Of a DNA stretch of 64,000 nt, positions 4,521 to 57,135 are shown piece by piece (position 1 is the first letter of the stretch; every line of letters begins with the position of its first letter). Origin of the DNA: Pseudomonadota bacterium (GTDB lineage: Bacteria > Pseudomonadota > Alphaproteobacteria > Rhizobiales > Phreatobacteraceae); contig JAIUOO010000010.1 of assembly GCA_020161695.1 (NCBI GenBank), positions 62,001-126,000 on the forward strand, given 5' to 3'. The notes below the pieces were generated by a model. The model searched no databases. It was not told the origin of the DNA and saw only the letters and a list, made by a program, of their open reading frames with translations. The translations under genes and the position numbers were made by a program.

Positions 4521-5411
4521 ATGGTCCAGTCTTCGGCAAGTGCGCCCGCCGCGAGAGGCCCGGGCCGCAGAACGGCCCGCTCGGCAGCCCTCGTCAGCTA
4601 TACGGGCCACCGGGCCAGCGGCCAGCAGGCGGCCGCGCTGCAGGATGTGCAGCGCCCCGTGGTCGCCATGGCCGCCGAGTTCGCCAATGGCGAGGTTGGC
4701 ACGCGGCACTGCCACCGGCGGGCGCAGTTCCTCTATGCAACGTCCGGCATCATGACAGTCATCACCGACGAGGGGAGCTGGGCGGTGGCGCCCCAGCATG
4801 CCCTGTGGATTCCGCCCGGCCTGATGCACCAGACGCGCTGCTGGGGGCAGGTCAATCTGCGCACGCTGTATGTCGAGCCGGATGCCGCGGCCGGGCTGCC
4901 CGCGACCTGCCAGTTGATGACTCTCACGCCGCTGCTCGCGGCCCTTGTCCAGGAGGCCGTCGCGCTGCCGGTCGAATACGATCCCGCAGGCCGCGAGGGG
5001 CGGATCATCGACCTGATTCTCATCGAGATCGGGCGCGTGCCGGTCCTGGCCAGCAGCGCGCCCATGCCGAAGGACCGGCGTCTCGCCCGCATCTGCGAGG
5101 CCATCCTGCGCGACCCCGGCAACAATCACGACCTCGACCACTGGGCGCGCCACGGCGGCCTTGCCCGCCGCACGCTGACGCGGCTGTTCCGCTCCGAGAC
5201 GGAGATGAGCTTCACGCAATGGCGCCAGCAGGTGCGGCTGATGGAGGCACTGACCCGCCTGACGTCCGGAGACACGGTGACGAATGTCGCGCTGGATCTT
5301 GGCTATGACAGTCCGAGCGCGTTCACCGCCATGTTCCGGCGCACCATGGGACTGTCGCCGCGCGACTATCTGCGCTGGGGCGATCCTCATGATGGCGACC
5401 GGCACGACTGA
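4521..5411 (+). CDS. AraC-family transcriptional regulator with cupin-type sensor domain
   Basis: A 296-residue regulator. The N-terminal half is a cupin-like ligand domain (HCHRRAQFLYATSGIMTVITDEGSW, then WIPPGLMHQTRCWG), the arrangement seen in AraC proteins of the AraC_N/cupin type. The C-terminal quarter has the two helix-turn-helix units: DLDHWARHGGLARRTLTRLF and the conserved VTNVALDLGYDSPSAFTAMF followed by MGLSPRDYLR. The ATG at 4521 follows a GGGAG element; the open frame further upstream is non-coding in character. Being divergent from the ABC importer, it probably regulates that operon or itself, but the inducer is not known. Confidence 0.9.
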   Translation: MVQSSASAPAARGPGRRTARSAALVSYTGHRASGQQAAALQDVQRPVVAMAAEFANGEVGTRHCHRRAQFLYATSGIMTVITDEGSWAVAPQHALWIPPGLMHQTRCWGQVNLRTLYVEPDAAAGLPATCQLMTLTPLLAALVQEAVALPVEYDPAGREGRIIDLILIEIGRVPVLASSAPMPKDRRLARICEAILRDPGNNHDLDHWARHGGLARRTLTRLFRSETEMSFTQWRQQVRLMEALTRLTSGDTVTNVALDLGYDSPSAFTAMFRRTMGLSPRDYLRWGDPHDGDRHD

Positions 5412-9827: not shown

Positions 9828-10409
9828 ATGTCGGAACCACCGAAATCCCCGTCCGCGCCCGGAGTCGACCCGAACCTCGAGGACGTCCATCTGATCGTTG
9901 CGACCGACGAGGAGGTCACCGTCGAGTATTTCCCCGAGGACTGGCTCGCCATCGGCATCTTCTGGTCGCTCGCCGTTATCGTCTTCCTGCAGTTCTTCAC
10001 CCGCTACGTGCTCAACAACTCGCTCGCCTGGACCGAGGAGATCGCCCGCTACCTGCTGATGGTGCTGGTCTTCGTCGGCGGCGCGATGGTGACGCGCCGG
10101 CGCACGCAGATCGCCGTGGAACTCGTCAGCAACGTCATGAAGGATGGACCGGCCAAGCGGGTGCTGATCGCCGCCGTCGGCCTTTTCAGCCTTGGCTTCG
10201 TCGCCATCCTCGCCTGGCTGTCGGTGCTAATCACCGAGCGGATGCACAACCTCTACATGACCGTCTTCGACTGGCCGATGTCGCTGGTCTATGGCGGCAT
10301 CGCCATCGGCTGCTTCCTGATGGTCTGGCGGCAGGCCCAGAACCTCTGGCGCGACGCCCGCGCCGGCTTCCGGCGGGAACCCGCCTCACCCCAGGACACG
10401 AACGGCTGA
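9828..10409 (+). CDS. dctQ: TRAP transporter small membrane subunit, DctQ family
   Basis: Small inner-membrane subunit of the TRAP transporter, 193 residues, with four predicted membrane spans (about WLAIGIFWSLAVIVFLQFF, YLLMVLVFVGGAMVT, VLIAAVGLFSLGFVAILAWL and SLVYGGIAIGCFLMVW). The DctQ motif FTRYVLNNSLAWTEEIARYLL lies between the first two spans. It carries a 40-residue, acidic and proline-rich N-terminal tail that is longer than usual for the family. I chose the ATG at 9828 (GAGAG upstream) over the in-frame ATG at 9750, whose extra residues look like translated intergenic sequence. It lies between dctP and dctM. Confidence 0.93.
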   Translation: MSEPPKSPSAPGVDPNLEDVHLIVATDEEVTVEYFPEDWLAIGIFWSLAVIVFLQFFTRYVLNNSLAWTEEIARYLLMVLVFVGGAMVTRRRTQIAVELVSNVMKDGPAKRVLIAAVGLFSLGFVAILAWLSVLITERMHNLYMTVFDWPMSLVYGGIAIGCFLMVWRQAQNLWRDARAGFRREPASPQDTNG

Positions 10410-48904: not shown

Positions 48905-49145
48905 GACCGATCTCCCCGCGACCAAACCCGGCGACGACCCTAGGCAATCGCGGTTGATGCGGGGTTACCGACGGCATCATGCAGCCCCATTGCGACACCG
49001 GCATCGTCTGCCCGCGATCGATCGCGCCAAGCCGGAGACCGCGAGGCGGTCTCGGGGGCGCCTTTTGCGGGGGCCGCCCCGGGGGAACTCGCCTCTGGCC
49101 GCATCGAGGCGCGCCCAAACGCGGGTGGGTCCCGGGTCACCGGCC

Positions 49146-50678
49146 TCACGCGGCGGCGCGAACCCGCTCTCCGGCGGCGCGGTAGGTCAGGGCTTCCGCC
49201 AGATGATTGCGGCCGATCATGTCCTCCTCCGCCAGATCCGCGATGGTTCGCGCCACCTTGAGAACGCGATGATAGGCCCTGGCCGAGAGACGCATCGCGT
49301 CCGCGGCGTTGCGCAGCAGGGCTAGCCCCGCAGCATCAGGTCGGGTCATCTCGTCGATGACCGAAGGCGGCGCATGAGCATTGAGCCGCACGCCGGCATG
49401 AGCCGCATAACGTGCGGCCTGCCGGGCGCGGGCGGCTGCAACCCGCGCTGCGACGGCGGCACTGCCTTCGGCCGGTGCCGGCAGGATCAGGTCGGCAGCC
49501 GAGACGGCAGGCACCTCGATCAGCAGATCCATGCGATCGAGCAGCGGACCCGAGAGCTTCGCCTGATAGTCGGCCATGCAGCGGTCATTGGGCATGCGCT
49601 TGCACGCGAATCCCGGCTCGGTGGCGTGGCCACAGCGGCAGGGGTTCATGGCGGCCACGAGCTGGAAACGCGCCGGAAAGGTCACGCGCTGGTTGGCGCG
49701 GGCGATGACGGCCTCGCCCGTCTCGATCGGCTGGCGAAGTCCGTCGAGGACATGCGGCTGGAACTCCGGCATCTCATCGAGGAACAAGACGCCGTGATGC
49801 GCCAGCGACACCTCGCCTGGGCGCACGCGCAGGCCACCGCCGATGAGCGCCGCCATCGAGGCGGAGTGATGGGGATTGCGGAACGGCCGCCGGGCGGTGA
49901 GCCGGCCGCCCTCCAGTTCGCCGGCGACCGAATGGATCATCGACACTTCCAGCAGCTCGGCAGGCGCGAGCGGCGGCAGGATCGACGGCATGCGGCTCGC
50001 CAGCATGGACTTGCCGGATCCGGGCGGGCCGCTCATCAGCAGGGCGTGCCCGCCGGCCGCGGCGATCTCAATCGCGCGCTTGGCGCTTTCCTGGCCCTTG
50101 ATGTCATGGAGATCGGCGAGGCCCGGTTCGACCGCCCTGATGCCCGGGACGGGCCGGGACAGAACCTGCGCGCCGCGGAAATGATTGACGAGCTGGAGGA
50201 GGTTGTCGGCCGCCAGCACCTCGACATCGTCGCCCGCCCATGCCGCTTCCGGGCCGCAGGCGGCCGGGCAGATGACGCCGAGACCCATGGCGTTCGCGGC
50301 CATGGCCGCCGGCAAGACGCCTGCGACGGGCGTGATGCGGCCATCAAGCGCCAGCTCACCGAGGACCATGAAGCCGCCGAGCGCGTCAGGCGGGATCGCG
50401 CCGATCGCGGCCATGAGGCCGAGCGCGATCGGCAGGTCGAAATGCGAGCCCTCCTTCGGCAAGTCGGCCGGTGCGAGATTGACCGTGATGCGCCGGCCCG
50501 GCAGTGCCAGCCCCGACGCCACCAGCGCCGAGCGCACTCGCTCCCGCGCCTCGCTGACGGCCTTGTCGGGAAGACCGACAATGTTGAACACCACCTGCCC
50601 GGAGAGGACGTGGACCTGCACGTCCACCAGCTTGGCCTCAATCCCCTCGAACGCGACCGTCGCGACCCGTTGAACCAT
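49146..50678 (-). CDS. comM: YifB/ComM-family Mg-chelatase-like AAA+ ATPase
   Basis: A 510-residue ATPase. The N-terminal lonC-like domain (GIEAKLVDVQVHVLSGQVVFNIVGLPDKAVSEARERVRSA) is followed by AAA+ motifs GPPGSGKSMLASR (Walker A) and GVLFLDEMPEF (Walker B), a CRCGH zinc-like segment, and the C-terminal YHRVLKVARTIADL. In naturally transformable bacteria ComM is a hexameric branch-migration helicase aiding recombination of incoming DNA. The ATG at 50678 gives MVQRVATVAFEGIEA, the conserved start. The kinase gene upstream in the window reads the same way, about 240 bp from its stop. Confidence 0.95.
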   Translation of the reverse strand: MVQRVATVAFEGIEAKLVDVQVHVLSGQVVFNIVGLPDKAVSEARERVRSALVASGLALPGRRITVNLAPADLPKEGSHFDLPIALGLMAAIGAIPPDALGGFMVLGELALDGRITPVAGVLPAAMAANAMGLGVICPAACGPEAAWAGDDVEVLAADNLLQLVNHFRGAQVLSRPVPGIRAVEPGLADLHDIKGQESAKRAIEIAAAGGHALLMSGPPGSGKSMLASRMPSILPPLAPAELLEVSMIHSVAGELEGGRLTARRPFRNPHHSASMAALIGGGLRVRPGEVSLAHHGVLFLDEMPEFQPHVLDGLRQPIETGEAVIARANQRVTFPARFQLVAAMNPCRCGHATEPGFACKRMPNDRCMADYQAKLSGPLLDRMDLLIEVPAVSAADLILPAPAEGSAAVAARVAAARARQAARYAAHAGVRLNAHAPPSVIDEMTRPDAAGLALLRNAADAMRLSARAYHRVLKVARTIADLAEEDMIGRNHLAEALTYRAAGERVRAAA

Positions 50679-50796
50679 GGCCCACCCCCGATGGCCATCC
50701 ATGCACGAGATCCGCATAAGAACAATAAGGGAACATCCGTATCGCCGCCGGCGAGGGCCCAGAGCATGCGTCGCGGCGTTGCAGAGGGCGGCTGCC

Positions 50797-50913
50797 GCTG
50801 GACCGCGATCTCCGAGGCGCTAATCGGGCGCCTTCAGAGATCGTGGTCTGGCTGTTAACAAGTAGCTAGTCTGCACCAGATAAGGGCGGCGCTCCGGCGC
50901 CGCCTTTTTCTTT
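50797..50913 (+). ncRNA. Candidate structured small RNA between comM and gshB
   Basis: The 326 bp gap 50679-51004 holds no gene of the flanking leftward operons, yet it carries a strong RNA-like structure readable only on the plus strand. Bases 50797-50812 pair with 50837-50852 as a 16 bp stem with thirteen Watson-Crick pairs and three G.U pairs (50799-50850, 50800-50849, 50805-50844); a 5 bp inner stem GGCGC/GCGCC (50816-50820 with 50828-50832) caps it. After 32 bases an intrinsic terminator hairpin and T-run follow. On the minus strand the G.U pairs would be A.C mismatches, so selection appears to be on the plus RNA. Its start may lie further upstream, near 50750-50790. Several trans-acting sRNA families (the alpha-r families) are known in Hyphomicrobiales; whether it belongs to one needs a covariance search. 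Confidence 0.65.
50885..50913 (+). terminator. Orphan rightward intrinsic terminator
   Basis: An 8 bp perfect stem GGCGGCGC/GCGCCGCC with a TCCG loop is followed by TTTTTCTTT. It faces right, but both neighbouring genes (comM and gshB) are leftward, so it cannot serve either. The minus-strand reading has no T-run after the hairpin. Confidence 0.88.
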
Positions 50914-51004
50914 GCGCTACCGCTTTCACGACGGCAGACGGGCCTGCGGCCTCGGAAATTCGCAAGGCCCGGAGCGCTCAGAACCGGAAGACAGTGGCCG
51001 CCGC

Positions 51005-51991
51005 CTACTTCCTCTTCGCCTCGATCACATCCCAGATCTGCGCGGCGATGTCCGGCCCGCCGAGCCGGCGGATGGCGCGGATGCCTGTCGGCGCCGTGAC
51101 ATTGATCTCGGTGAGGTTGCCGCCGATCACGTCGATGCCGGCGATGATGATGCCACGCTCCCTCAGCGCCGGCCCTATGGTCTCGCAGATTTCCCGTTCG
51201 CGCGGCGTGAGCTGCGTCGTCTCGGCGGCGCCGCCGCGCACCATGTTGGACCTGAGGTCGTCGGCTGCGGGCACGCGGTTGACCGCGCCTGCGAATGTCC
51301 CGTCGACGAGGATGATGCGCTTGTCGCCGTCGCGCACGGCCGGCAGGTAGTGCTGGATCACCCAGGGCTCGCGGGTGAGCGCCGCGAACGTGTCGAGGAA
51401 GGAGCCGAAATTCTCGTCGTCCTTGCGGATGCGGAAGACGCCGGCGCCGCCATGACCGTAGAGCGGCTTCATGACGATGTCCCCCATCTCCTTCCGGAAC
51501 GCGCGGATCGCGTCGAAATCGCGGGTGATCAGCGTCGCCGGCATCAGCTGCGGGAACAGCGTGACGAAGACCTTCTCCGGTGCGTTGCGGACGTGGAAGG
51601 GGTCGTTGACGACCAGCGTCTGCGGGTGGACGCGCTCGAGGAAATGCGTCGCCGTGATGTAGTGCAGGTCGAAGGGCGGGTCCTGCCGCATCAGAATCAC
51701 GTCGAAGCTCGCGAGCGGCACGCGCGCGCCCTCGCCGAGGGTGAAATGGTCGCCCTCGGTGTCGCGCACGGCAAGCGGATGGGCGAGCGTGCTCGGCACG
51801 CCGTCGCGCATGGCCAGCTTGTCGGGATGGTAATAGTGGAGGTCGTGACCGCGCGCCTGGGCTTCCAGCATCAGTGCGAAGCCGGAATCGCCGGCAATCC
51901 TGATCGACGCCATCGGATCGGTCTGCACCGCCACCTTCAGGCGCGCCCTGCCGCCGATTTGGGGGGCGGCTGCTTCGGCCTTCTCGCTCAT
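51005..51991 (-). CDS. gshB: Glutathione synthetase
   Basis: An ATP-grasp ligase of 328 residues that joins gamma-glutamylcysteine and glycine to make glutathione. Seen in order: [34 protein letters not shown] (GSH synthetase N domain), [40 protein letters not shown], the ATP-binding [17 protein letters not shown], and the metal-binding [14 protein letters not shown] near the C-terminus. Length is typical. It follows yraN by 12 bp and is the last gene of rsmI-yraN-gshB, a common alphaproteobacterial operon. Confidence 0.98.
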
Positions 51992-56923: not shown

Positions 56924-57135
56924 GCGAGCCTCCACCGGGATACCGGTCGGAGACGGTGCTTGGGTGGCATTGGATAGCCACCTGACGGGGCGACCGCCGA
57001 AGGCCCCGCTGGCATCAGATTGCCGCCGTCCTCCGTCCTTTGCAAGAGGCCCGCACGGCTCCCATGCGGTCGATGGCAGCCGTTCCGCCACCAAATCGGC
57101 TAGACAGCCCAACAGGGACAGGAGGATCGACCGTC

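Follow-up and report, generated by a model that had tools for sequence, protein, structure and literature searches.

The window, by which we mean the whole 64,000-nucleotide stretch of DNA analysed, carries comM (YifB) and gshB on its minus strand, and no protein family explains the gap between the two genes, although mechanical open reading frames cross it (Table 1). Consistent with a first-pass annotation of this gap, all 16 positions of 50797-50812 (GCTGGACCGCGATCTC) were found to pair with 50837-50852 (GAGATCGTGGTCTGGC), three of them through non-Watson-Crick pairs that are each G.U on the plus strand. Gap-free stems of this length (G.U allowed, loops of up to ~60 nt) occur at two sites on the plus strand of the whole window, and at 0, 1 and 0 sites in three shuffles. 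The fold of 50780-50920 reaches -82.8 kcal/mol (z = -6.9), a value equalled or bettered in 0 of 200 shuffles. Also confirmed was a rightward rho-independent terminator, consisting of 50882-50907 and a T-run; it is the sole one in 50300-51300, where 0.4 would be expected by chance.

From these features the first-pass annotation had proposed a non-coding RNA gene on the plus strand, equipped with a terminator of its own and with selection acting on its pairing, interpreted as an independent small RNA (sRNA) that was either new or a member of an alpha-r family. The gene, its terminator and the selection for plus-strand pairing are upheld by the analyses below, while the assignment to an alpha-r or new independent sRNA is replaced. 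Furthermore, the functional unit corresponds to 50834-50910 rather than to the stem.

Table 1. Features between and including comM and gshB in the window.
Feature	Position	Strand	Basis
CRISPR-repeat-like segment, single, ~36 nt; probable comM-side end of a former array, containing the 5' arm of the stem	50791..50826	+	32/36 identical to the G011 repeat GTTGCCGCTGGACCGCGATCTCTGAAGCGCTAATCT
Degraded promoter-like element, TGGACC-16 nt-TAATCG	50799..50826	+	Weight matrix from relatives
tracrRNA body (anti-repeat, nexus region, terminator)	50834..50910	+	Held-out covariance model R1
Predicted tracrRNA transcript	~50832 to 50912	+	
Anti-repeat (CRISPR-repeat complement), the 3' arm of the stem	50834..50852	+	Pairs with CRISPR repeats
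Proposed nexus hairpin, GUAG-CUAGU-CUGC	50862..50874	+	Hand reading of conserved blocks; lies between conserved GTTAACAAG and GCACCAGATAAGG
Rho-independent terminator of the tracrRNA	50882..50913	+	Stem pairing kept through two-sided changes
comM (YifB family AAA ATPase), probable left flank of a former CRISPR-Cas locus	49146..50717	-	Orthologue flanks cas2/array in L131
gshB (glutathione synthase), probable right flank of a former CRISPR-Cas locus	51005..51991	-	Orthologue flanks tracrRNA in L131

Homology to type II-C tracrRNAs

When 101 related genomes were searched at the DNA level with the gap sequence, matches were identified in the congener G011 (91%) and in genomes of other families (G044, G085, G094 and G055), and in all of these a match to the Cas9 profile adjoins the copy of the feature. 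In G044, one arm of the stem was found to repeat a few kilobases away with a 66-bp period (36-nt repeat plus 30-nt spacer), the signature of a CRISPR array. The repeat-like segment of the window likewise aligns with the repeats of intact II-C arrays of this organization (36-nt repeat, 30-nt spacer, 66-bp period) in G011, G044, G374 and others.

Seven cas9-adjacent tracrRNAs from outside the genus, but neither the window nor G011, were used to build a covariance model, R1, which matched the body of the window feature on the plus strand with 88.5 bits (E 1.7e-22). Members of the aligned family share an anti-repeat, an invariant GTTAACAAG, the block GCACCA(G/A/C)AT and a terminator whose stem stays paired despite two-sided changes. 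Among eight distinct systems, 96.7% of the cells in the repeat/anti-repeat comparison were paired and six pairs had changed on both sides; no shuffle reached as high a value (0/500), and the signal was gone when the alignment was slid by 1 nt. That the anti-repeat co-varies with the CRISPR repeat found in its own genome provides direct evidence that the family is tracrRNA. The window anti-repeat pairs both with its own fused repeat and with the repeat of G011, and we regard the identity of the feature as a tracrRNA gene as practically certain. Within its body, the minimum-energy fold draws a longer stem over 50843-50874 in place of the proposed nexus hairpin.

In classifying the gene, a conserved core with a Rho-independent terminator was recognised by R1, a model not trained on this sequence, whereas a working tracrRNA would also be accompanied by a Cas9 and an array, which the window genome lacks. 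Searches of this genome (38 contigs, 98.9% complete) with a Cas9 profile, the G011 Cas9 protein and a Cas1 profile gave no match, and neither a Cas9 remnant nor a second copy of the repeat was found in it. Given this lack of Cas9 and array, we class the feature as an orphan tracrRNA gene or relic and not as a working tracrRNA. Relative to the type II-C tracrRNAs of Hyphomicrobiales and other Alphaproteobacteria, it has the same anti-repeat, GTTAACAAG...GCACCAGATAAGG core and terminator, as well as the same (divergent) orientation with respect to the lost cas9; it differs in that its genome is without cas9, cas1 and array, and in that its promoter is replaced by a CRISPR repeat.

The intact locus of G011 and the missing segment

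The corresponding locus of G011 (L131) is ordered comM, one-spacer array, cas2, cas1, cas9, tracrRNA (9893-9969) and gshB, with scores for Cas9, Cas1 (TIGR03639, type II form) and Cas2 that exceed curated cut-offs. Neither csn2 nor cas4 was seen in this locus, which on gene content suggests subtype II-C. Its array comprises a degenerate terminal repeat, a 30-nt spacer and a repeat at ~4903-4938; with a single spacer and a degenerate end repeat, the array (L131:4837-4938) holds an immune memory that is nearly empty.

Positions 49001-50823 of the window align with L131 3055-4870, positions 50798-50917 with L131 9857-9976, and the sequence from 51004 with L131 10143 onwards. Both edges of the locus are thus present in the window and its ~5 kb middle is absent, with the tracrRNA following immediately on the comM-side repeat. 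Of the three G.U pairs of the stem, two (U50799.G50850 and G50800.U50849) also occur between the CRISPR repeat and anti-repeat of related intact systems, and can so be traced to an inherited duplex of two CRISPR-system RNAs; the third (G50805.U50844) is due to a T in the window anti-repeat at a position where G011 has a C. The hairpin is a CRISPR repeat beside its own anti-repeat, most likely brought together by deletion.

Upon closer inspection the G011 tracrRNA promoter was found to be repeat-like, sharing 16 bp of exact identity with the repeat (GACCGCGATCTCTGAA) in the same orientation, and in G011 and the window alike, 29 nt separate this 16-bp segment from the anti-repeat. The anti-repeat of relatives is usually preceded directly by a TTGAC-(16-18)-TAT-like promoter, and the 5' end of the native tracrRNA is therefore expected close to the anti-repeat, with the 5' arm of the stem excluded. 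The window element sits at exactly the place of the relatives' consensus, TTGACC/G-16 nt-TAT(C/T/G)(A/C/T)T. It scores 5.3 on the promoter matrix (95% and 99% of background at 3.7 and 6.1, respectively), against 12.0-15.2 for the six relatives that have this spacing and 1.8-12.8 for all others; a sigma-70 promoter scan found none. The same matrix gives 10.6 on the repeat of G044, 8.0 on that of G011 and 5.3 on the window copy. Repeats of type II-C arrays have been described as able to carry promoters (PMC5052741, PMC10309648).

In view of the 16-bp identity and the shared 29-nt register, the absence of the ~5 kb middle is consistent with a repeat having recombined with the tracrRNA promoter that resembles it. 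The common ancestor of the window genome and G011 would have possessed a full CRISPR-Cas9 locus, in which homologous recombination between the CRISPR repeat and the tracrRNA promoter, in direct orientation, may have removed ~5 kb, cas genes included, with the window arrangement as product. Such a crossover would place a repeat directly beside the anti-repeat, generating the long hairpin, and would exchange the tracrRNA promoter for the weaker promoter-like sequence of the repeat in the same register. As Cas9 and crRNAs are missing and the promoter is weakened, the RNA would be at most weakly made and would probably have no current immune function. Between the -10 element and the anti-repeat, TAATCGGGCG stands against TATCATGAAG, for which a simple crossover is insufficient without further substitutions; as this interval differs from both parents, the exact crossover point cannot be placed. 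The direction of change is read from a comparison of two genomes, G011 being the only other congener to carry the locus, and from the reasoning that neither a repeat nor a tracrRNA originates in the absence of a system. Recombination of this kind would represent a route of CRISPR-Cas9 loss in which an array repeat and a repeat-like tracrRNA promoter remove every protein gene in one step.

We also examined the age of the loss. Values of dS between the window and G011 are 0.35 for comM and 0.32 for gshB, with a fourfold-site difference of 0.20-0.22. The tracrRNA body shows one difference in 88 positions, and the spacer between the tracrRNA and gshB aligns to G011 only with many gaps. Had the body been unconstrained over the whole window branch, 11-15 changes would be expected (P(<=1) = 2e-4 to 8e-6), which suggests either a loss within the last ~35-45% (a third to 45%) of the branch or continued constraint, alternatives that two genomes cannot separate. 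Given that the promoter has degraded, recent loss is favoured: a recent relic is most likely, and residual function is possible but unsupported. Taken together, these findings make it highly probable that a type II-C tracrRNA gene was orphaned here when its CRISPR-Cas9 locus was deleted, and that the remaining scar is a recent relic without current function.

Alternative readings and known CRISPR-derived RNAs

Retention of the orphan tracrRNA for a new function, either as a natural single-guide-like RNA directed at the Cas9 of an incoming plasmid or phage (a decoy or an anti-cas guide) or as a host sRNA, appears unlikely. Its DNA is laid out like that of a single-guide RNA (repeat, loop, anti-repeat, nexus and terminator) with a strong ~24-bp stem, the body is nearly unchanged relative to G011, and CRISPR leftovers can work, as illustrated by the type I-F orphan arrays of Escherichia coli, which can counter cas genes that enter the cell (Almendros et al. 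2016, as cited in PMC8616872). However, the 5' arm lies within the promoter zone, so that a native transcript would begin at the anti-repeat, and the sequence 5' of the repeat, where a guide matching a cas promoter would be sought, has no match in the G011 cas locus except in the orthologous flank. The fused form was also found in no second species in which constraint after the fusion could be seen. It seems quite improbable, in particular, that selection maintains the fused, single-guide-like RNA as a decoy or regulator with incoming Cas9 or host RNAs as its target.

A parallel in arrangement is tracr-L of the Streptococcus pyogenes II-A system, which similarly has a repeat-like segment on the same strand 5' of the anti-repeat (PMC11417352; Workman et al. 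2021), and a read-through transcript of the window could in principle fold as a single guide in the same manner. Whereas tracr-L depends on Cas9, on an upstream promoter dedicated to it and on a guide that matches Pcas, none of these was found for the window feature, and tracr-L has not been found in other subtypes (PMC8616872). As in the E. coli I-F orphan arrays (PMC8616872), a non-coding part of a CRISPR system has outlived the loss of cas genes; here, by contrast, what persists is a spacerless fusion of a single repeat and a tracrRNA. The Racr RNA anti-CRISPRs (PMC10651486) also consist of a solitary CRISPR-like repeat outside an array. Membership of this group, defined by a repeat unit on a phage or mobile element, was rejected: the window feature is chromosomal (comM-gshB), includes a full tracrRNA, and is accounted for by a deletion in the light of the syntenic CRISPR locus of G011.

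An assembly artefact, in which cas genes exist and short repeats led the assembler to join a repeat to the tracrRNA, is very improbable. The junction does fall within sequence that is repeated in the intact locus; however, a collapse would leave cas9-cas1-cas2 on another contig, the Cas9 and Cas1 searches found nothing in the 38 contigs, and the fused arm has substitutions of its own.

In 8 of the 9 other congeners with a readable gap, blastn, tblastn and R1 identified no tracrRNA or cas genes in the comM-gshB gap, so that the conservation of the stem expected by the first-pass annotation was observed solely in G011, which keeps the stem because it keeps the CRISPR system. That the feature is a trans-acting sRNA in its own right, belonging to an alpha-r or another Rfam family, as suggested by the stem, the terminator, an intergenic position opposed to both neighbours and weak matches to SorY (E 0.008) and suhB/mmgR, is scarcely credible in view of this absence from eight gaps, of Rfam scores far under gathering for every family (SorY 26.3 bits vs 111, mmgR/suhB 16.7 vs 41), which refute alpha-r membership, and of strong homologues that, decayed loci aside, are cas9-adjacent tracrRNAs. 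A literature search on sRNAs between comM and gshB found nothing relevant.

Orphan tracrRNA genes across Alphaproteobacteria

Applying R1 to two samples of 397 genomes of the order and 376 of the class (~770 Alphaproteobacteria), we identified 36 genomes with E <= 1e-7, nearly all with cas9 within ~0.1-2 kb or at a contig edge. The exceptions comprise the window genome (G000) and G365, both without cas9, together with G115 and G394, which possess an N-terminal cas9 fragment only. In the latter two (L193:7662-8115, G115:C6; L194:6526-6997, G394:C87), the tracrRNA and cas9 fragment lie well inside a contig, and these systems have apparently been caught in decay.

Similar orphans thus exist elsewhere, beside a tRNA-Ser gene in G365 and as solitary tracrRNA-like RNAs on phage-like contigs. 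The G365 orphan (L192:8690-8830; G365:C15:258749-258827) comprises a degenerate repeat-like segment, anti-repeat, nexus-like region and terminator ~80 bp beyond the 3' end of the tRNA-Ser gene; it has lost the GTTAACAAG motif, and no cas genes were detected in the surrounding 18 kb. Three viral contigs carry the tracrRNA core GTTAACAAG...GCACCA.ATAAGG and a terminator (L203:9694-9724, L202:1465-1495 and L201:3632-3661), and no relative of the G011 cas9, cas1 or cas2 was found in their examined DNA. L203 (IMGVR_UViG_3300036781_000420) represents a real phage or prophage, given a terminase large subunit gene ~1 kb downstream, and both L202 and L203 are without the usual anti-repeat. These RNAs are possible phage-borne tracrRNA mimics.

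A search of the literature for 'orphan tracrRNA' found nothing relevant; its coverage fell short of a full survey, and an earlier description is possible. Should such orphans prove to be retained, RNA-based control of incoming Cas9 would be a candidate role for them. With Rfam 15, no match to a tracrRNA was obtained for the window feature. The case illustrates that a hairpin and terminator resembling an sRNA can be the remnant of a CRISPR system, and tracrRNA models should therefore form part of any search for new sRNAs.

The comM-gshB gap ranges from ~90 bp to 6.7 kb among congeners (G001, G002, G003, G004, G007 and G008), marking it as a recurrent place of insertion, and the open reading frames of a 6-kb insert in G007 read like a putative Mrp/Mnh antiporter operon. 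Elsewhere in the window, positions 56953-57008 on the minus strand match the Rfam chrB-b RNA (RF03086) with 39.8 bits, against a gathering score of 36.5 bits.
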